This document shows, in pieces, positions 43,666-51,819 of a stretch of DNA of 64,000 bases. The stretch lies in contig NZ_JAIQDE010000013.1 of the NCBI RefSeq assembly GCF_020037015.1, forward strand, positions 124,001 to 188,000, given 5' to 3'. The translations under genes were made by a program, and so were the position numbers. Every line of letters starts with the position of its first letter. The first letter of the stretch is position 1. Source of the stretch: Corallococcus sp. AS-1-6 (GTDB lineage: Bacteria; Myxococcota; Myxococcia; Myxococcales; Myxococcaceae). Below the pieces are notes generated by a model. That model had not been told where the DNA came from and did no database searches. It saw only the letters and a program-made list of their open reading frames with translations.

Positions 43666-44209
43666 GGGCGTGCCGTGCGCGCACCCGCTGCCGCACCACC
43701 CATTCGCCCGCGAACAAGAGGCCCATGAGGCCGTAGGCGATGAGTCCGTTGTAGAGCGCCCACGTCGCGTCGCTCGCGAAGAGGGCCGTGGTGAGCGCGA
43801 GCGCGCCGTTGAAGACGAAGAAGCCGCACCACACCTGCGTCACCCGGCGCGTGTAGGCCACGCCCGAGGGCGGCAGGTCCTTCTCCCGGAGCCGCGCCAG
43901 GCGCTCGATGACGCTGGGCGGCCAGGCCAGGCTGGTGGCGAAGACCGCGAGGAGCACCCCGTTCACCAGCACCGGGTAGAGCTTCAGGGGCAGGGCGTTG
44001 TTGCCCAGCATGCTGGCGCCCGCGAGCACCAGCGCGCCCAGGGCGGCCGCGAGCCACATCTTCTCCCGCGTCGCCACCGCGCGCACCACCGCCATGGCCG
44101 CCAGGGGCAACGCCATCCAGCGGGGCTCGAAGTGCCCCAGGCCCAGATAGACGAGCGGCGGGTAGGCGAGGCTCAAGAGCCCCAACAGCACCGGGCGCAG
44201 ACGCTTCAC
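43658..44209 (-). CDS. COG4648-type integral membrane protein of the APE operon
   Basis: 183 aa from GTG 44209, which overlaps the ACP stop (GTGA). Five to six hydrophobic segments, for example LLGLLSLAYPPLVYLGLG, LAAALGALVLAGASML, LVNGVLLAVFATSLAW and LIAYGLMGLLFAGEWVV. The TQVWCGFFVFNGALA element near 130 is kept in COG4648 proteins of APE clusters. Function unknown; perhaps a membrane anchor for the biosynthetic complex or part of transport. Confidence 0.8.
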   Translation of the reverse strand: MKRLRPVLLGLLSLAYPPLVYLGLGHFEPRWMALPLAAMAVVRAVATREKMWLAAALGALVLAGASMLGNNALPLKLYPVLVNGVLLAVFATSLAWPPSVIERLARLREKDLPPSGVAYTRRVTQVWCGFFVFNGALALTTALFASDATWALYNGLIAYGLMGLLFAGEWVVRQRVRARHAHG

Positions 44210-44466
44210 GCCGCGGCGGAGTCGCTGCCGAGCAGACCGTACAGCGCGTCCACCACGTCCTGGATGGTGCGCACGGAGCGGAAGACCTCCGGCGGGACGC
44301 GCTGGCCCGTCACCGGCTTCAAGCGCACCAGCAGGTCGATGGCGTCAATGCTGTCGATGTCGAGGTCGTCGTGCAGCCGCGCCTCCGGGATGATGCGGGA
44401 CGGCTCGATGTCGAAGGTTTCCTGGAGGATGGCGCTCAGGCGCTCGAACAGCTCGTGCTTGGTCAT
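44206..44466 (-). CDS. apeF: Acyl carrier protein 2 of the APE operon
   Basis: 86 aa with GAGGAG 8 bases before ATG 44466. The phosphopantetheine Ser39 lies in LDIDSIDAIDLL, four helices as usual for ACPs. One of the two carriers that hold the aryl starter and growing polyene. Assignment as ApeF instead of ApeE rests on gene order only. Activation needs a phosphopantetheinyl transferase, which is not in the operon. Confidence 0.88.
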   Translation of the reverse strand: MTKHELFERLSAILQETFDIEPSRIIPEARLHDDLDIDSIDAIDLLVRLKPVTGQRVPPEVFRSVRTIQDVVDALYGLLGSDSAAA

Positions 44467-44501: not shown

Positions 44502-44765
44502 TTAGGAACGGGTGCGGTGGGTGCTGACGAAATCCGCGAGCGCCCGGACGCTGGCGAAGTGACGGCGGTTCTCCTTGGAGTCGCTCGCCAGCACGACGCC
44601 ATAGGACTTCTGCAACGCGAGGCCGAGCTCCAGGGCGTCAATGGAGTCCAGCCCCAGCCCTTCGACGAACAGCGGCGCCGCCGGATCGATGTCCTCCGGC
44701 TTGACGTCCTCGAGGTTCAGCGTCTCGATGACCAGACGCTTTATTTCCTGCTCAAGCTCCAACAT
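44502..44765 (-). CDS. apeE: Acyl carrier protein 1 of the APE operon
   Basis: 87 aa. Phosphopantetheine Ser41 in GLGLDSIDALELGLAL. The N-terminal half (VIETLNLEDVKPEDID) is typical ACP helix I and loop. ATG 44765 overlaps the end of the PlsC-like gene by 14 bases. Together with the second carrier 35 bases downstream it forms the ACP pair seen in APE clusters. The ApeE label rests on order. Confidence 0.88.
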   Translation of the reverse strand: MLELEQEIKRLVIETLNLEDVKPEDIDPAAPLFVEGLGLDSIDALELGLALQKSYGVVLASDSKENRRHFASVRALADFVSTHRTRS

Positions 44766-45531
44766 GTCCCTGGCTCCCCCTGGAGAAATGGTCGTGCAAA
44801 CGGGTGGTGAGCTGGCGCGCGGCCTTCGCCGCCTCGCCCGCTTCCGCGTCCTGGGCGGACACGGGGATGTCGTCCTCCACGCGGATGACGTAGTGCATGG
44901 GCTTTGACGGCACCTTCCACCAGGGCATGCCCTTGGTGAGGCCTCGCGGCTCGCAGCGGATGATGACCGGCGTGATGTCGCAGGGGCCGCGCACCGCGAT
45001 GTTGGCGGCGCCGCGCTGCAACTGCATGTTCCCGTCGAGCGGCGTGCGCGAGCCCTCCGGGAAGATGATGAGGTTGTTGCCGGCCTTCACGGACGCGATG
45101 CAGTCCTGGATGAGCCCGGGCCCGGAGTCGTTGCACAGGTAGCGCGTCGCCCGGATGGGGCCGCGCGTGAACGGGTTGTTGGCCAGGCTCGCCTTGACCA
45201 CGCAGTCCGCGTTGGGCACCAGGGAGATGAGGAACACCACGTCGATGAGCGACGGGTGGTTGGCCAGGATGAGCAGCCCGGAGCGCGCCAGCTTCTCCAC
45301 GCCCTGCAGTTCGTAGCGCAGCACGCCCAGGGCGCGCATGTAGCCGATGAAGAAGCGGAACGTGTAGTGCACCGCGAGCCGCGCCAGCCGCTGCTGCCGC
45401 GCCGGATCGCGCACGAAGAGCGCCAGCAGCGGGAAGTAGAGGAGCCGCAGCGCCAGCCCCCCCAGGCCGAACGTGGCGAAGGACAGCCCGGTGGCGAAGA
45501 TGCGCCACGGCCGGTCGAGCTTCTCAAGCAT
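44752..45531 (-). CDS. PlsC-like 1-acylglycerol-3-phosphate acyltransferase of the APE operon
   Basis: 259 aa. A hydrophobic N-terminus (LSFATFGLGGLALRLLYFPLLALFV) anchors it in the inner membrane. The acyltransferase motif is LANHPSLIDVV (His92, Asp97), followed by IIFPEGSRT and VIIRCEP. It should attach an acyl chain, perhaps the finished aryl polyene, to a glycerol- or lipid-based anchor. It overlaps the chain-length-factor gene by 8 bases and the first ACP gene by 14. Confidence 0.87.
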   Translation of the reverse strand: MLEKLDRPWRIFATGLSFATFGLGGLALRLLYFPLLALFVRDPARQQRLARLAVHYTFRFFIGYMRALGVLRYELQGVEKLARSGLLILANHPSLIDVVFLISLVPNADCVVKASLANNPFTRGPIRATRYLCNDSGPGLIQDCIASVKAGNNLIIFPEGSRTPLDGNMQLQRGAANIAVRGPCDITPVIIRCEPRGLTKGMPWWKVPSKPMHYVIRVEDDIPVSAQDAEAGEAAKAARQLTTRLHDHFSRGSQGHVGA

Positions 45532-46255
45532 GGCGCGCCCACCGCCAGCACCGGCCGCCCGTCGCGTGCTCCCACCGCGAGGCGCCGGAGACCAGGAAGC
45601 GCAGGGCGCGCAGGTCCGCCGGGAGGTCCGCCGCGTCCACTGGCGCGGCGGGGGCGCTGGCCGCGCAGTCCAGGTGGATGGCGTCCGCGCCCGTGCTGGC
45701 TGAAAGGAGACAGGCCCATGCGTGAGGAAACGCCACGTCCCGGCAGAAGTGTTCCCACGGCGTGGGCACGGGCTCCTCGTAGATGACGACCATCACCCGG
45801 GGGACGCCGTCCGACAGCAGGCCACACGCCTCCGTGAAGGCGGCCTCCACCGTCTCCTCCCCCGCGGCGATGGCGGCGTAGGCGGACGTGTCCCCCCGCG
45901 CGATGGAGTAGAGCGCGCCGATGGCGTTGTGCACCGACAGGCTGAAGGACGTGGGCGACAGCGGCTCCGAGCGCGCCAACTGCGTGAGCAGCTCCACCGA
46001 GCGGCCCAGGTCCCCATAACGCGATGCGAAGACGACGGGCGCGTCCGGCGCGTCCACGTGCGCGTCATACGCCGCCTGCAACGCGATGCGGCCCAGCCGA
46101 TCCACCCGGCGGCGCATCATCGCGGGCATCGCCGCGAGCGCTGGCGTGCCTTCCGCGGGGAGCGGATGCGGGGTCGCGAGCCACGTTTCCCAGGAAGCAG
46201 GATTGACGAGTCCGGGGGCCCAGGCGGCCCAGCGCTGTACGGAGAATCCCACCAT
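45524..46255 (-). CDS. apeC: Beta-ketoacyl synthase-like chain length factor (ApeC-like)
   Basis: 243 aa from ATG 46255; the frame is open upstream but without protein-like sequence. It resembles only the N-terminal part of ketosynthases (PF13723-type). VVFASRYGDLGRSVELL and SPTSFSLSVHNAIGALYSIA are visible, and the catalytic Cys is absent, the corresponding region being VHNAIG. In the E. coli system ApeC is the inactive partner of ketosynthase ApeO. It is the first gene of the 19-gene APE operon, and a candidate promoter lies about 35-65 bases upstream. Confidence 0.8.
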   Translation of the reverse strand: MVGFSVQRWAAWAPGLVNPASWETWLATPHPLPAEGTPALAAMPAMMRRRVDRLGRIALQAAYDAHVDAPDAPVVFASRYGDLGRSVELLTQLARSEPLSPTSFSLSVHNAIGALYSIARGDTSAYAAIAAGEETVEAAFTEACGLLSDGVPRVMVVIYEEPVPTPWEHFCRDVAFPHAWACLLSASTGADAIHLDCAASAPAAPVDAADLPADLRALRFLVSGASRWEHATGGRCWRWARHA

Positions 46256-46602
46256 CGTGACGGAGAGGCCCCAATCGCCCCCAAAGACAACCTTTACCAA
46301 ACCATTCACAGGGTGACAATTGGGCGGCCGACCCGAGCAGGCCGGACGCCGGGAGCCCGCCCTGCCGCCTGCCCTGTGTCTGTCGCAACCCCACGTTCTT
46401 GTTGATGAAAGACGCAACGCTGCCTCGGCCTTCAGGTTCTTCCGGGTTTGTCCAGGGAGAAGACGCACCGGTGTGTCGCGCGGCGCGTGACGCGCTCCGC
46501 GAGTCATTCGGATCGAGCGGTGCAAACGGGTTGTGACGGTGGCTTGCGTGACGTGGCGGAGGGCGCGCGTATTCACGCCGCGCGCGCCGCTGCCTGTATG
46601 TT
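46256..46602. other. Intergenic region upstream of the APE operon
   Basis: 347 bases between the mdcG-like stop and the first APE gene. It should hold the operon promoter; a candidate is listed at 46291-46319. A GC-rich inverted repeat (GGCGCGCG 46562-46569 with CGCGCGCC 46581-46588) may end the mdcG-like transcript. No ORF here looks coding. Confidence 0.5.
46291..46319 (-). promoter_or_regulatory. Candidate sigma-70-like promoter of the APE operon
   Basis: On the minus strand TTGTCA (46319-46314) and TAAAGG (46296-46291) are spaced by 17 bases. The -35 box is good and the -10 box is poor. A start near 46284 would give a leader of about 30 bases. The surrounding 40 bases are less GC-rich than the flanks. 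Confidence 0.35.
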
Positions 46603-47262
46603 TCAGGACTCGGAGGGGAAGAGGGCGCGCAGCTCGCGGAGCGTGCGGGGCCGGGCGCCGCGGGGGCCGGTGACCCAGATGCGCTCGGGCTCCAGCGCGA
46701 GCTCGCGCCAGGACACGGCGCCCCCGTCCGGCAGCAGCACCTCGCCGTCCAGGCGCACCACCGAGTGGCGCCGGGACACGGCCTCCAGTCCGAACAGCAG
46801 CCGCTCCACGTCCGACCAGCGCGCGGGGGCGAACAGCAGATCCACGTCCGACAGCGACCGGACGAAGGACACGCCCGAGCGGTGCTGCCAGGCCAGCGAA
46901 CCGAACACGCCCACCGTCAAATCCAGCGCGGTGCCCAGGGCGATGACGTCATCCAGGGCGGGGCCCCAGGCGGCGGGGGCCGTGGCGCGCACCTCCTGCG
47001 CGGTGGGCGGCGGCAGGTGGCGCTCCACGGCGGACAGGGCCACGTGCAGCGACAGGTGGCGGCGGTCGGGCAGGGTGAGCCCCAGCCGCAGGTCGTCCTC
47101 CTGGTCCGGCAGGTCCTGGCGGGCGACGGCGAAGGGCCGGCCCTGATCCCGCCACGCCGTCACCTGCGCGTGGACGTCCGGGAGCAGGGGAGAGCGCAGG
47201 GCCTCCGCCCAGCCGGCGTCCAGGTACACCCAGTCATGCCGCACCGGACGTTCACCGCCCAT
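46603..47262 (-). CDS. mdcG: MdcG-like malonate decarboxylase holo-ACP synthase (orphan)
   Basis: 219 aa, the usual size of MdcG. It begins RHDWVYLDAGW, has LPLRRH-like repeats in the middle, and shows the nucleotidyltransferase motif VFGSLAWQHRSG (Gly121-Ser122) with LSDVDLLF (Asp139, Asp141). MdcG moves 2'-(5''-phosphoribosyl)-3'-dephospho-CoA onto the ACP of malonate decarboxylase. None of the other mdc genes (A-E, B, H) is in the window. ATG 47262 has GGAG 10 bases upstream. It is 347 bases upstream of the APE operon, same strand; whether it serves the APE carriers is unknown. Confidence 0.78.
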   Translation of the reverse strand: MGGERPVRHDWVYLDAGWAEALRSPLLPDVHAQVTAWRDQGRPFAVARQDLPDQEDDLRLGLTLPDRRHLSLHVALSAVERHLPPPTAQEVRATAPAAWGPALDDVIALGTALDLTVGVFGSLAWQHRSGVSFVRSLSDVDLLFAPARWSDVERLLFGLEAVSRRHSVVRLDGEVLLPDGGAVSWRELALEPERIWVTGPRGARPRTLRELRALFPSES

Positions 47263-47510
47263 CAGCGACCGTCTCCTGTCGCCAGGGGGGAGCCGGGCCC
47301 GCTTCCGCGACGCGGGACGGGGCTGCCCCCGGGACATGCGGAAGCGGAAGCGGTGGAACTCACTGCTCGATTCATTACCCGGATTCAAGCCGCCGGTGGG
47401 AGCGATCCTGCACCGGTCGGCGACGGTTGCTCCCGGTCGCGCGAATCTCCCCGGAAATCCGGGTGGGAGCCGAGCGCACGCATCAGGGATTCCCCTGAGT
47501 CGCGGGAGGG

Positions 47511-49064
47511 CTAGCGGGGCTTCTGGAGGAGGGGGCTCACGGCGCTCACGTGCTGGTGGCGCATGTCGATGAGGATGTCGTAGTTGCGCGGCTCCGGGGC
47601 GACGGGGCCGGCGGCGAAGCGGTAGAGGCCGCTCACGTCGTGCTCGCCAGGGAAGCGCTCCTTCACCAGGGCCTTGAGCATCTCCTTGGCCACCCACTCC
47701 GCGTCCACGGAGACGGAGCCGAACTCGTCCAGGTAGTGGAAGGGCGCGGTGGAGTCCGCCTGCTTCGCGGTGAGGACGAAGACGCGCGGCTTCCGGTCCG
47801 GGACGACGAGGCTCGCGCCCTGCTCCATCACCGCCAGCTCCCGGCCCTGGGGCAGGGCGAACAGCTCCAGGGACTGCTGGTGCGCGAGCAGGGCGCTGAA
47901 GGCCACGAACGCGGTGAGCAGGGCCGTGGCCACGCGCGGGCCGTGCCGGGGCCAGAGGGTGCCCAGGTTCGCCAGCGACGCGGCGAAGAACACGGCCCAC
48001 ACGCCCGTGAGCGCGTTGAGCGTGCGGTAGGTGGGCCACCGCTCCCCGGCGAGGAAGCCCACCGAGTACGCCGCGCCCGACAGCGTCACCAGCGCCAGCA
48101 GCCAGCGCCCCACGCCCGTAAGCCCCGAGCGGCGCCCCTCCACCGCGATGCCCACGCCCAAGAGCGTCAGCGTCAGCACCACCATGGCCCGGTAGCCGTC
48201 CATGTCGCCCACCGGCGCCTCGTTGAGCGCGGACAGCGCGAGCGCGTTGGGGAACACGTGCGTGAGCGCCCAGACGGTCTTGTCCACCCAGTGCTTCTCG
48301 AAGCTGAGCCGGGGTGAGGGCGGGAAGATGCCCGCCTTGAACAGCACCTGCGTGACGGCGTACGCGAGCGCCAGGCCCGCGCCCATCACCAGCAGGTGCT
48401 TGAGCATCCAGCGCGCGGTGGCCTTCAGCGACACGTCGTGGTGCGCCACCAGCGACGCCGCCAGCAGCACCGCGGAGAACAGGCCGCTCACCTGATAGAT
48501 GAGCGTCGCGGTGGCCATGGTGCCCACCGCGGCCAGCGCGTACGGCCACCGGAGGGGGGCCTCCGCGCCCGGCGGACCGATGGCGCGGCGGGCGAAGGCG
48601 AACGCGCCCAGGCCCAGCATCAGCGCCAGGGCCTGCGGCCAGCAGATGCTCCAGTTGGCGATGACCTGCGCGGACGGCGTCACCGTGAGGAACCCCGCCA
48701 GCAGCGCCGCGGAGCCCGGCCGCCAGCCCTCCTTGCGCAGAAGCAGGAACACCGCCGCCGCCAGCACGCCCAGCCCGGCCACGCCCATCAGGCGCAGCCC
48801 CATCAGCCCGTCGATGCCGCCGGCCGCCTTCGCGGACGCCTCCAGCATCCAGCCGTAGAGCGGGCGGCCCTGCGACGCGCAGACGCGCAGAATCTTGCCC
48901 GGCTCCTCGCGCGCCTCGCGCAGGATGGCGTAGTCGTCACGCAGGCCGTACCGGTGGATGACCGCGCTCCAGTAGATCAGCCAGGGAAGCAGGAGCAGCA
49001 GGGCCACGGTGCCGGGAGTCCCCAGCGCGCGCGGCGAAAGACGCTTCATCAACGGGAAGGCCAT
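47511..49064 (-). CDS. Polytopic membrane protein, GT-C glycosyltransferase-like
   Basis: 517 aa from ATG 49064 (ATG 49049 is an alternative; neither has a clear ribosome site). About eleven hydrophobic helices and a soluble C-terminal domain of roughly 110 residues. The first loop has HRYGLRDDYAILREAREEPG, an acidic pair as in GT-C enzymes. No family is certain. It lies between the mdcG-like gene and the DNA polymerase gene. Confidence 0.6.
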   Translation of the reverse strand: MAFPLMKRLSPRALGTPGTVALLLLLPWLIYWSAVIHRYGLRDDYAILREAREEPGKILRVCASQGRPLYGWMLEASAKAAGGIDGLMGLRLMGVAGLGVLAAAVFLLLRKEGWRPGSAALLAGFLTVTPSAQVIANWSICWPQALALMLGLGAFAFARRAIGPPGAEAPLRWPYALAAVGTMATATLIYQVSGLFSAVLLAASLVAHHDVSLKATARWMLKHLLVMGAGLALAYAVTQVLFKAGIFPPSPRLSFEKHWVDKTVWALTHVFPNALALSALNEAPVGDMDGYRAMVVLTLTLLGVGIAVEGRRSGLTGVGRWLLALVTLSGAAYSVGFLAGERWPTYRTLNALTGVWAVFFAASLANLGTLWPRHGPRVATALLTAFVAFSALLAHQQSLELFALPQGRELAVMEQGASLVVPDRKPRVFVLTAKQADSTAPFHYLDEFGSVSVDAEWVAKEMLKALVKERFPGEHDVSGLYRFAAGPVAPEPRNYDILIDMRHQHVSAVSPLLQKPR

Positions 49065-49134
49065 CGAAGTTGACGCAACGTAGCAGAAGCCTCCCACGGG
49101 CTCCCGGAGGAAGCGGGACACGGCAGGGTTCCAG

Positions 49135-51684
49135 TCACGGTGAGAAGGGCGGGGCTCCAACCACCTGCGCGTCCTCACCGAACTCGGGGCCTTGGGGGGC
49201 TCTCACGACGGTGAGCACGGGCCGCGCTTGCGCAAGGGACGGGGTGAAGAGGGAGGGCTGGTCGGGGTCCGCGAACACGGTGGCGAAGTCCTCCGGGGCC
49301 AGGCCCCGCGCGAGCCGGGCCGCGAACGAGTCCTTGAGCAGGCGCACGTAGTACTCGACGTCGTAGTCGCGCGCGTCGTCGCCCGCGGGCTCGCCGGGCC
49401 CCGGGCGCGGGGCGGGCTCGCCGTCCTCGGTGAGCGCTTCGGGGAGCAGGCCCGCGCGGCCGCCGGTGGCGCGGTAGATGCGCACGCGCTCTCCCAGGGA
49501 CCAGTGCTCGCGGCCGTTCGTGAGCAGCGCTTCGTACGGCAGCTCCCTGCGCTGCTTGCGCGTGGCCAGGTACTGCGACGGGGACTTGGTCAGCCGCACC
49601 TGCGCGGAGACCTCGAAGGTGGGCACCTGGCGCCGCCGCAGCGCCATCACCGCGTCCACGTAGGTGTCGCGCACGGCGCGCACGTCGCCGGCCAGCAGGT
49701 GCTGGAGGGCGCGGCGCAGGAAGTCCTCGCCGTAGGGCTCCGCGCGGCTGGAGCGGAAGGCCACGCCGCGCAGCAGCAGCGGGCCCGCGTAGGGCTGGAG
49801 CGCGTAGTTCTTCGGTTCGTGGGACAGCATGGCGGCGTAGCGCCCGTCGAACTCCAGCTTCACGCGCGGCGGCAGCAGGCCCGCGACCTCCGCCACCACG
49901 CGGCGCTCGTCCGCCTCCGTCCAGGACTCCGGCACCGCGAAGTAGACGCCGTCCGTGTCGGCCTCCAGCAGCGTCACGCCCCGGTGCGCCAGCTCGCGGC
50001 ACATCAGGCCCAGCAGCTCGCGCCCGCGCCGCGTCACCTCGTTGGCGGCGTGCACGTCCGAGAAGCGGGTGAGGCCCACCGCGCCCAGGTAGCCGTAGGC
50101 GGAGTTGATCAGGATCTTCATCGCCGCCGAAATCGCTTCGTGCGTGTGGCGCTCCCGCGAGCCGGGCGGGGCCTTCTTCGCCTGGGCCTTCGCGTCCAGG
50201 CGCTGCTCCACCAGCCGGTCCACCAGCGCGAGCAGCGCGTTCAGCCGGTCGCGCTTCGGCCCGATGCGGTACTGGCGCATCAGCGACGGGTAGAGGCTGG
50301 CCACGTCCGCCTTCACGATGTGGCGCGCGACGCCGGTGGCGAACAGGTGCAGCGCCGCGCCGCTGTGGGAGGTGCCGTCGCCGGACTCGTGCGCCGGCAG
50401 CGCCGCGCCCGAGCGCACGTAGGCGCGCACCAGCAGCGGATCCAACACGCCCGTCGCGGGGCCCGCGTCCGCCAGCCGCTCGTAGCGCCGGGGGGCCATG
50501 CGCGCGAGCGCGAACGCCGCGCCGCCCAGCAGGTGCGCCAGCCCCGCCGCCTCCGTCACGTCCTCGCGCGCGTAGCGGCGCACGCGCTCCGGGTCCTTGA
50601 GGAAGACCTCGTGGATGCGCGCGCCGGGGATGAGCTCGCGGTCGGGCCCGGACAGGCCCAGGTGCCGCGCCACCGCCTTGAGGCCGTGGCCGGGCAGGTC
50701 GCGGGCGGCGAAGTCGTGGCGGCGCACGGCGTCCAGCGTGTCGATGAACTCGCGGCCGGGGACGGTGTAGCGCGCGCGGCGCATGGCGTCCGCGTCACGG
50801 CCCCCGGGGCCCCGGTTCAGCGCGGCGCCTCTCGCGGAGGGGCGGTGGCGCAGGCCCGGCAGCCCCGCGCGGCCCAGCGCCAGCGGCACGTTGAGCCGCT
50901 TCGCGCGCTGGTCCAGGAAGGGCAGGTCGAAGCCGTGCAGGTTGTGGTTCTCCACCACGTCGGGGTCCGCCTCGCGCAGGCGCGCGACCAGCCGGCGCAG
51001 GAGGTCCGCCTCGCCCGCGTCGCCGTCCTCCGTCACCTCCAGCGTCTCCGCGCGGCCGTCCGGGTCCCTCAGCGCCACGAGGAAGATGCGGTCCCGGGTG
51101 GGGTCCAGGCCGGTGGTCTCCAGGTCGAACTGGAGCCTCCGCAGGTCGTCGAACACCAGGTCGCGGAAGTACGTGCGGCCGGTGGCGACCAGGTACTGCT
51201 CCTCCGGCGGCAGCACCAGCGCCGCGGCCGGGCCCAGGTCGCGCAGGTGGCCCACGCGCCGGTCCAGCCGCTTCGACGCGCCCTTGAGCACCGCGGACGC
51301 CAGCGCGCGGCCGTCCTCCGCGCTGACGAGGAAGCGCAACGCGCCGGGCCCCTCCAGCTCCCGGTACGTCACGGCTCCTGGCACGGGCGGCGCCGGCGGC
51401 GGGCCCTCCGGACGGAGCGCGTCCCCCAGGTGCTCCAGGTCCTGGAGCGACGCGAGCAGCACCCAGGGGCGGTACCTCGCGTCCTCGCGCAGCCGCGCGT
51501 GCGTGCCCGGCTGCCGCTTCCAGACGAAGGCGCGCCCGTCCGGTTCCGCCCAGACGGACACGATGCCCGGCGTGGGGTCCCATCCCCACAACCACTCGTC
51601 CTCCAGCGGATGGGGCGGCGGGACCATGGGCGGGGACTCAGGGGGCGGAAGGCGCGGCGTGCGGGCGCTGCTCCGGGCGCTCAT
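49135..51684 (-). CDS. polB: Family B DNA polymerase (Pol II-like)
   Basis: 849 aa from ATG 51684 (ATG 51627 is also plausible). The 3'-5' exonuclease has ExoI FDLETTG, ExoII ENHNLHGFDLPFL and ExoIII YAREDVTEA. The polymerase has motif A KADVASLYPSLMRQ, motif B KILINSAYGYLG and motif C EADTDGVYF. So proofreading and synthesis sites are both complete. An Arg/Gly-rich insert (HRPSARGAALNRGPGGRDADAM) sits between ExoII and ExoIII. Bacterial family B enzymes such as E. coli Pol II act in damage bypass and restart. No SOS-type operator stands out at the start. It is divergent from the WYL regulator. Confidence 0.92.
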   Translation of the reverse strand: MSARSSARTPRLPPPESPPMVPPPHPLEDEWLWGWDPTPGIVSVWAEPDGRAFVWKRQPGTHARLREDARYRPWVLLASLQDLEHLGDALRPEGPPPAPPVPGAVTYRELEGPGALRFLVSAEDGRALASAVLKGASKRLDRRVGHLRDLGPAAALVLPPEEQYLVATGRTYFRDLVFDDLRRLQFDLETTGLDPTRDRIFLVALRDPDGRAETLEVTEDGDAGEADLLRRLVARLREADPDVVENHNLHGFDLPFLDQRAKRLNVPLALGRAGLPGLRHRPSARGAALNRGPGGRDADAMRRARYTVPGREFIDTLDAVRRHDFAARDLPGHGLKAVARHLGLSGPDRELIPGARIHEVFLKDPERVRRYAREDVTEAAGLAHLLGGAAFALARMAPRRYERLADAGPATGVLDPLLVRAYVRSGAALPAHESGDGTSHSGAALHLFATGVARHIVKADVASLYPSLMRQYRIGPKRDRLNALLALVDRLVEQRLDAKAQAKKAPPGSRERHTHEAISAAMKILINSAYGYLGAVGLTRFSDVHAANEVTRRGRELLGLMCRELAHRGVTLLEADTDGVYFAVPESWTEADERRVVAEVAGLLPPRVKLEFDGRYAAMLSHEPKNYALQPYAGPLLLRGVAFRSSRAEPYGEDFLRRALQHLLAGDVRAVRDTYVDAVMALRRRQVPTFEVSAQVRLTKSPSQYLATRKQRRELPYEALLTNGREHWSLGERVRIYRATGGRAGLLPEALTEDGEPAPRPGPGEPAGDDARDYDVEYYVRLLKDSFAARLARGLAPEDFATVFADPDQPSLFTPSLAQARPVLTVVRAPQGPEFGEDAQVVGAPPFSP

Positions 51685-51819
51685 AGGCGCGCGGGGGCCC
51701 GCTTCGCAAGGGTGGGCGGACAGGAGCGGCGTGGCGCTGTCGGGAGGGCTTCGCATCGCGGGTGCCTTGGCAGCAGCTTGAGGCCCCCGGCTGACAGCGG
51801 TATGTCAGGATTCACCGCC

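Follow-up and report, generated by a model that had tools for sequence, protein, structure and literature searches.

Corallococcus carries an mdcG gene that belongs to malonate decarboxylase by its sequence and stands, throughout the genus, without the rest of that system; the reading towards which we cautiously lean is that this orphan MdcG derives from the mdcG of an mdc operon and has been retained as a functional nucleotidyltransferase with a changed substrate. MdcG is the phosphoribosyl-dephospho-CoA transferase of malonate decarboxylase (TIGR03135; PF20866 and PF10620), and its normal job is cofactor loading. A single mdcG, with no stop or frameshift, was found in 16/16 Corallococcus genomes (genus g1, one of the 16 being a bin labelled Myxococcaceae only), and both the start of the gene and its length of 219 codons are identical in all of them.

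We analysed a 64-kb stretch of Corallococcus DNA (the window). A preliminary description had placed an MdcG with GSLAWQ and SDVDLLF motifs at 46603-47262; such a gene is indeed encoded there, on the minus strand, and its product matches both the Pfam and the TIGR03135 models. The features within it are as follows.

46603..47262, minus strand: mdcG, 219 aa, with an MdcG_N domain (residues 8-85) and an MdcG nucleotidyltransferase domain (residues 91-204)
46885..46902, minus strand: GSLAWQ motif, MdcG residues 121-126, kept in 16/16 Corallococcus
46831..46851, minus strand: SDVDLLF motif, MdcG residues 138-144, with D139 and D141 kept in 16/16
46738..46755, minus strand: RLDGEV, MdcG residues 170-175, with D172 and E174 kept in 16/16 Corallococcus and in 36/36 operonic MdcGs
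47056..47058, minus strand: residue 69, His in 16/16 Corallococcus and Arg in 36/36 operonic MdcGs
46669..46671, minus strand: residue 198, Thr in 16/16 Corallococcus; of 36 operonic MdcGs, 35 have Lys and one has Arg

The open reading frame of the window begins with an ATG at 47262 and its stop ends at 46603. Its product matched the Pfam profiles MdcG_N (6e-14) and MdcG (3.9e-25) and, over its full length, the TIGR03135 equivalog model (1.1e-43; 149.6 bits, which exceeds the curated cut-off of 99.7); the narrower model NF002332 gave 33.9 bits, below its cut-off of 126. The D139/D141 pair of SDVDLLF presumably binds metal, the role expected of it in the nucleotidyltransferase family, and D172 or E174 is likely to be the third carboxylate of the active site. 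Annotation pipelines score the gene as 'malonate decarboxylase holo-ACP synthase', although searches of the 16 genomes revealed neither a donor maker nor a carrier nor a decarboxylase.

The absence of malonate decarboxylase genes from the window, which had been pointed out beforehand, was confirmed by tblastn (E 1e-4) with nine other mdc queries, representing eight proteins with MdcB used as two pieces. It had also been suggested that the mdc operon lies elsewhere, and a complete operon lacking its own mdcG had been named as the finding that would speak against an orphan gene. No such operon was found in the window's genome, a 100% complete assembly of 9.5 Mb in 82 contigs, where mdcG is present once and searches for mdcA, mdcC and CitG/MdcB gave no match. 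In profile searches within 145 genomes of the order, CitG/MdcB and mdcC were each detected in 0/16 Corallococcus genomes, and the mdcA model returned only 64-residue fragments in 9/16 (19.6-23.5 bits; cut-off 789); similarly weak fragments occur in genus g19, itself without mdcG. As a control, the mdcC model detected E. coli below cut-off, presumably through the citrate lyase carrier; it found no citrate-lyase-type carrier in the window's genome. Relics of mdc genes were not apparent in either intergenic stretch flanking mdcG, where tblastn with the mdc set gave a best E of 0.010, i.e., chance level. The Corallococcus protein is MdcG by sequence, not by system: its defining partners were searched for and none was found. 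Among the papers listed by our literature searches on MdcG, malonate decarboxylase, citX and related enzymology, none described an MdcG standing alone, and no paper dealt with Corallococcus and malonate decarboxylase together.

Across the phylum, MdcG was present in 27/195 genomes, comprising the 16 Corallococcus genomes, three genomes of genus g34 (a second orphan group) and eight with mdc operons. For comparison of gene neighbourhoods, 69 MdcG loci with flanking DNA were assembled: 23 from Corallococcus (several representing the same genome twice), 3 from g34 and 43 others. These 43 stem from the genomes of the order and from a pattern-limited scan in which the Corallococcus protein was the query, and they are not a census. 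Other mdc genes were found in the flanks of 0/26 Corallococcus and g34 loci. Outside the two orphan groups, mdcB adjoins MdcG in 43/43 loci and mdcA is also seen in 39/43; in the remaining four, the available flanking DNA stops too soon. The MdcGs of L090 and L092, two of the 43, diverge too far to be picked up by the tblastn query and were detected by profile.

A maximum-likelihood tree of 55 MdcGs was computed, leaving out of both the tree and the residue counts two divergent operonic MdcGs (L026 and L029, from G022 and G017) and four partial ones (L057, L066, L070 and L071). The Corallococcus MdcGs form one clade (support 100/100) nested among operonic MdcGs; its sister is the operonic MdcG of G074, a genome of genus g6 in the same family, with support (88/75) that is not strong, and the next branch is Azospirillum TSO35-2 (99/96). 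Between the loci of G074 (L087) and Azospirillum TSO35-2 (L038), MdcA is 87% and MdcD 82% identical, and MdcG only 53%, so that MdcG appears to be a fast-evolving member of the mdc operon in this comparison. Given the 87% identity of MdcA, this type of operon has probably been transferred between phyla. In G074, the mdcB of the otherwise complete operon is in two frames, with two CitG matches (L087 8637-9511), reflecting either a frameshift or a sequencing error. The mdc operon does decay within this family, as is evident in G073, also of genus g6 (L111, G073:C70:258000-270000), where an internally deleted mdcB, an mdcH and a frame-split mdcM remain, the rest being absent from the 12 kb taken, and where the genome has no mdcA and no mdcG. 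Loss of the operon in the Corallococcus ancestor and transfer of a lone mdcG would both fit these data.

The surroundings of mdcG are conserved within the genus and include two conserved non-coding blocks, as listed here from upstream to downstream.

47511..49178, minus strand: upstream neighbour, 555-aa protein, no Pfam match, a membrane protein by look
47447..47469, minus strand: box A, conserved palindromic block, candidate operator or transcript end of the upstream gene
47372..47402, minus strand: box B, a conserved stretch of non-coding DNA at 110-140 bases before the mdcG start, candidate promoter/operator
45524..46255, minus strand: first gene of the APE operon and next gene downstream of mdcG, of the ketoacyl synthase N-terminal domain type, with its start taken to be at 46255
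44502..44765, minus strand: first APE carrier, Pfam PP-binding, its role as a target unsupported
44206..44466, minus strand: second APE carrier, Pfam PP-binding, its role as a target unsupported

The 555-aa gene lies on the same strand as mdcG, about 247 bases away, and its start is overlapped by a gene for a family-B DNA-polymerase-like protein (49135-51756, minus strand; 873 aa) with an RNase H-like exonuclease domain; this upstream pair adjoins mdcG in 15/15 other Corallococcus genomes. Orphaning by a genus-specific insertion was considered and rejected, as the 555-aa neighbour is also present in 31 other genomes of the family; neither mdcG nor an APE operon lies beside it in the 12 regions taken, one of which (L101) holds a weak AMP-ligase-like match (E 1e-5). 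Within limits that were picked by eye after the alignment had been seen, mean pairwise identity across the 16 genomes is 97% for box A and 90% for box B, the latter versus 64% and 71% in the intergenic stretches flanking it; the comparison values are 58-71% for other intergenic stretches and about 81% for four-fold degenerate sites of mdcG. Box A may belong to the upstream 555-aa gene. The 16-base core of box B has one exact site in the genome, the gene's own, and one site with two mismatches elsewhere; the idea of the core as a regulon motif was rejected. No Rfam RNA family was detected at E 1 in 46200-47800, and searches for sigma-70 promoter and terminator patterns around mdcG found none.

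Selection on mdcG differs between its two parts. The whole-gene pairwise dN/dS of 0.40 (16 genomes) is the highest among the nine genes compared in this region (others 0.06-0.36); within the gene, the N-terminal part (residues 1-116) has a dN/dS of 0.58 (0.41-0.78) versus 0.18 (0.11-0.28) for the catalytic part (residues 117-219), with a permutation p of 0.0008, all from pairs among the 16 genomes that are not independent. Synonymous divergence is ordinary in the catalytic part and about the same in both, indicating that the constraint acts on the protein. The ratio of N-terminal to catalytic dN/dS is 3.18 (1.80-6.12) in Corallococcus, compared with 1.28 (0.84-2.06) in 15 operonic Bradyrhizobium loci, 0.89 (0.51-1.51) in 5 operonic Nitrospirillum loci and 0.79 (0.34-1.81) in a single pair of operonic loci from the order. 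Since the Corallococcus and Bradyrhizobium intervals overlap slightly and the N-terminal part is also less conserved than the catalytic part in some distant operonic pairs (57% and 72% for L060 vs L053; 36% and 48% for G017 vs G035), this shift is a matter of degree.

These data bear on the main rival explanation, in which mdcG is all that survives of a lost mdc operon, a relic in slow decay that is still intact by chance or by weak residual constraint and has no present function. In favour of it, the gene has the highest whole-gene dN/dS of the nine compared, and operon decay has occurred nearby in G073. Against it stand the absence of stops and frameshifts in 16/16 genomes, the dN/dS of 0.18 in the catalytic domain, the retention of all active-site residues and the conserved boxes upstream; we regard this explanation as the less likely one. 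With a constrained catalytic domain and a looser N-terminal domain, Corallococcus mdcG does not look like a simple fossil.

Residue conservation was assessed against 36 operonic MdcGs, the rows that remained after 6 partial or divergent ones had been dropped. Among 45 columns conserved in at least 85% of these, 32 are identical in all 16 Corallococcus proteins, including G121, S122, D139, D141, D172, E174, W185, R186 and E187. Most of the other thirteen are variable or share their state with the G074 and Azospirillum proteins; R69 and K198 stand out, both being retained in G074 and Azospirillum. Donor phosphates are often held by basic residues in enzymes of this kind, and the replacement of R69 by His and of K198 by Thr therefore suggests that the donor or the acceptor has changed. 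The same replacements weigh against the alternative that the protein performs classical MdcG chemistry and that its donor synthase and carrier are encoded at other places in the genome, in forms that went unrecognised. The TIGR03135 score lies above the cut-off, and very distant analogues of the partners could escape profile searches; however, neither CitG nor mdcC was matched in any of the 16 genomes, even though the mdcC model did pick up its E. coli control below cut-off, and we consider this alternative improbable.

The preliminary description had further proposed a reused carrier-modifying enzyme and had drawn attention to two acyl carriers about 2 kb downstream. These carriers do exist: the two PP-binding genes begin about 1.8 kb downstream of mdcG on the same strand, as part of an APE operon that starts about 350 bases downstream and encodes a ketoacyl synthase type protein, an acyltransferase, the two carriers and an AMP-ligase with an ApeI-like domain. 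This operon adjoins mdcG in 12/15 other Corallococcus genomes; in the other three, the contig stops before that point. Three of the 12 have an insert of about 2 kb between mdcG and the APE operon; where this insert was read (L081 5818-7812, one subgroup of the genus), it holds a gene on the opposite strand for a DUF4185 protein of 664 aa with a weak carbohydrate-binding match. Judged by a single proxy gene, the APE ligase-dehydratase relative, APE is present in 27/80 other family genomes, in 17 of them at 64-69% identity, and none of the 27 carries mdcG; conversely, G074, the only other family genome with mdcG, has no APE ligase relative at E 1e-60. In the published description, MdcC folds as a five-stranded beta-sheet, and MdcB and MdcG modify it at a loop serine, Ser25 (PMC5534430); this fold differs from the PP-binding fold of ApeE and ApeF. 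Because none of these other family genomes carries both mdcG and the APE proxy gene and the carriers are unlike MdcC, the adjacency most probably reflects synteny at the level of the genus. Same-strand adjacency in the window and in 12/15 other genomes notwithstanding, modification of ApeE or ApeF by MdcG is thus very improbable and is rejected as a leading idea, given this lack of co-occurrence, the insert of about 2 kb in three genomes, the different carrier fold and, in most genomes, a 350-base gap and conserved boxes that suggest separate transcription. Hence, the reuse part of the earlier proposal gained ground, through the kept active-site residues, the constrained catalytic domain and the replaced basic residues, and its targets did not. 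The case warns against inferring aryl polyene carrier modification from gene adjacency.

An AlphaFold2 model of the window MdcG (pLDDT 93.4, pTM 0.87) is compatible with a nucleotidyltransferase to which a small binding domain is joined. Residues 1-84 align to SH3-like or KOW-like small barrels, e.g., of ribosomal proteins (Z about 6). Alignments of the C-terminal domain are weak (Z < 8), with Z 6.5 over 90 residues (3.7 A) for ANT(2'')-Ia, Z 6.1 for AadA and Z 6.3 over 82 residues (3.0 A) for the MNT antitoxin. Foldseek with the model returned nothing at E 1e-3, and a search for solved structures by sequence returned none at E 10.

For the retained nucleotidyltransferase with a changed substrate, we propose a mechanism in which the Corallococcus ancestor would have kept mdcG alone from an mdc operon. 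The small N-terminal beta domain would bind the acceptor, and the C-terminal domain, in which D139/D141 and a third acidic residue would bind metal, would move a nucleotide-like group from a triphosphate-bearing donor to a hydroxyl. The protein would then be expressed and active. Since no maker of triphosphoribosyl-dephospho-CoA was found and two universally basic residues are replaced, we infer that this compound is probably no longer the donor and that an ordinary NTP such as ATP is more likely; the acceptor would be neither MdcC, which was not found, nor an APE carrier. A mutational study of the MdcG active site is said to have been made by Hoenke in 2000, and MdcG is reportedly able to transfer AMP from ATP. 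More specifically, and only tentatively, Corallococcus MdcG could be a new stand-alone nucleotidyltransferase that has kept its machinery, switched its donor (probably to an NTP), turned its N-terminal domain to a new protein or small-molecule acceptor and come under its own genus-specific promoter. If this is true, it would be, to our knowledge, the first MdcG acting outside malonate decarboxylase. An active protein would be an example from nature of an enzyme released from a single substrate pair, in which the ancestor's operon is preserved for comparison in a relative, G074, and two residue changes can be named.

Compared with known systems, Corallococcus MdcG is closest to the operonic MdcGs, with which it shares both domains at full length, the GSLAWQ and SDxDL motifs, D172/E174 and a position nested in their tree; it differs from them in that Corallococcus lacks matches to mdcA, mdcB and mdcC, in that R69 and K198 are replaced and in that its N-terminal domain evolves faster than its catalytic domain. 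CitX, the holo-citrate lyase synthase, attaches the same prosthetic group as MdcG. With the minimal nucleotidyltransferases (ANT(2'')-Ia, AadA and the MNT antitoxin), the likeness is confined to the weak alignment of the C-terminal domain (Z < 8), which may reflect a common fold. Finally, the second orphan MdcG-like gene, found in genus g34 of the same order (L093, L094 and L095 from G026, G028 and G029), resembles Corallococcus mdcG in that no mdcA, mdcB or mdcC was found in its three genomes. Unlike Corallococcus mdcG, it lies, in the two loci read (L094 and L095), near biotin-synthesis-like genes, with a threonine ammonia-lyase-like gene on one side and BioF-like/BioB-like genes on the other (named from the open reading frames), and its product has lost S122, D139 and D172 in 3/3 genomes, with Arg for K198 and a catalytic-domain dN/dS of 0.44. 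Because these three residues are lost in all three genomes, the g34 gene may encode a pseudoenzyme tied to biotin synthesis, and the group provides a useful contrast to Corallococcus, as an example of what lost catalysis looks like.
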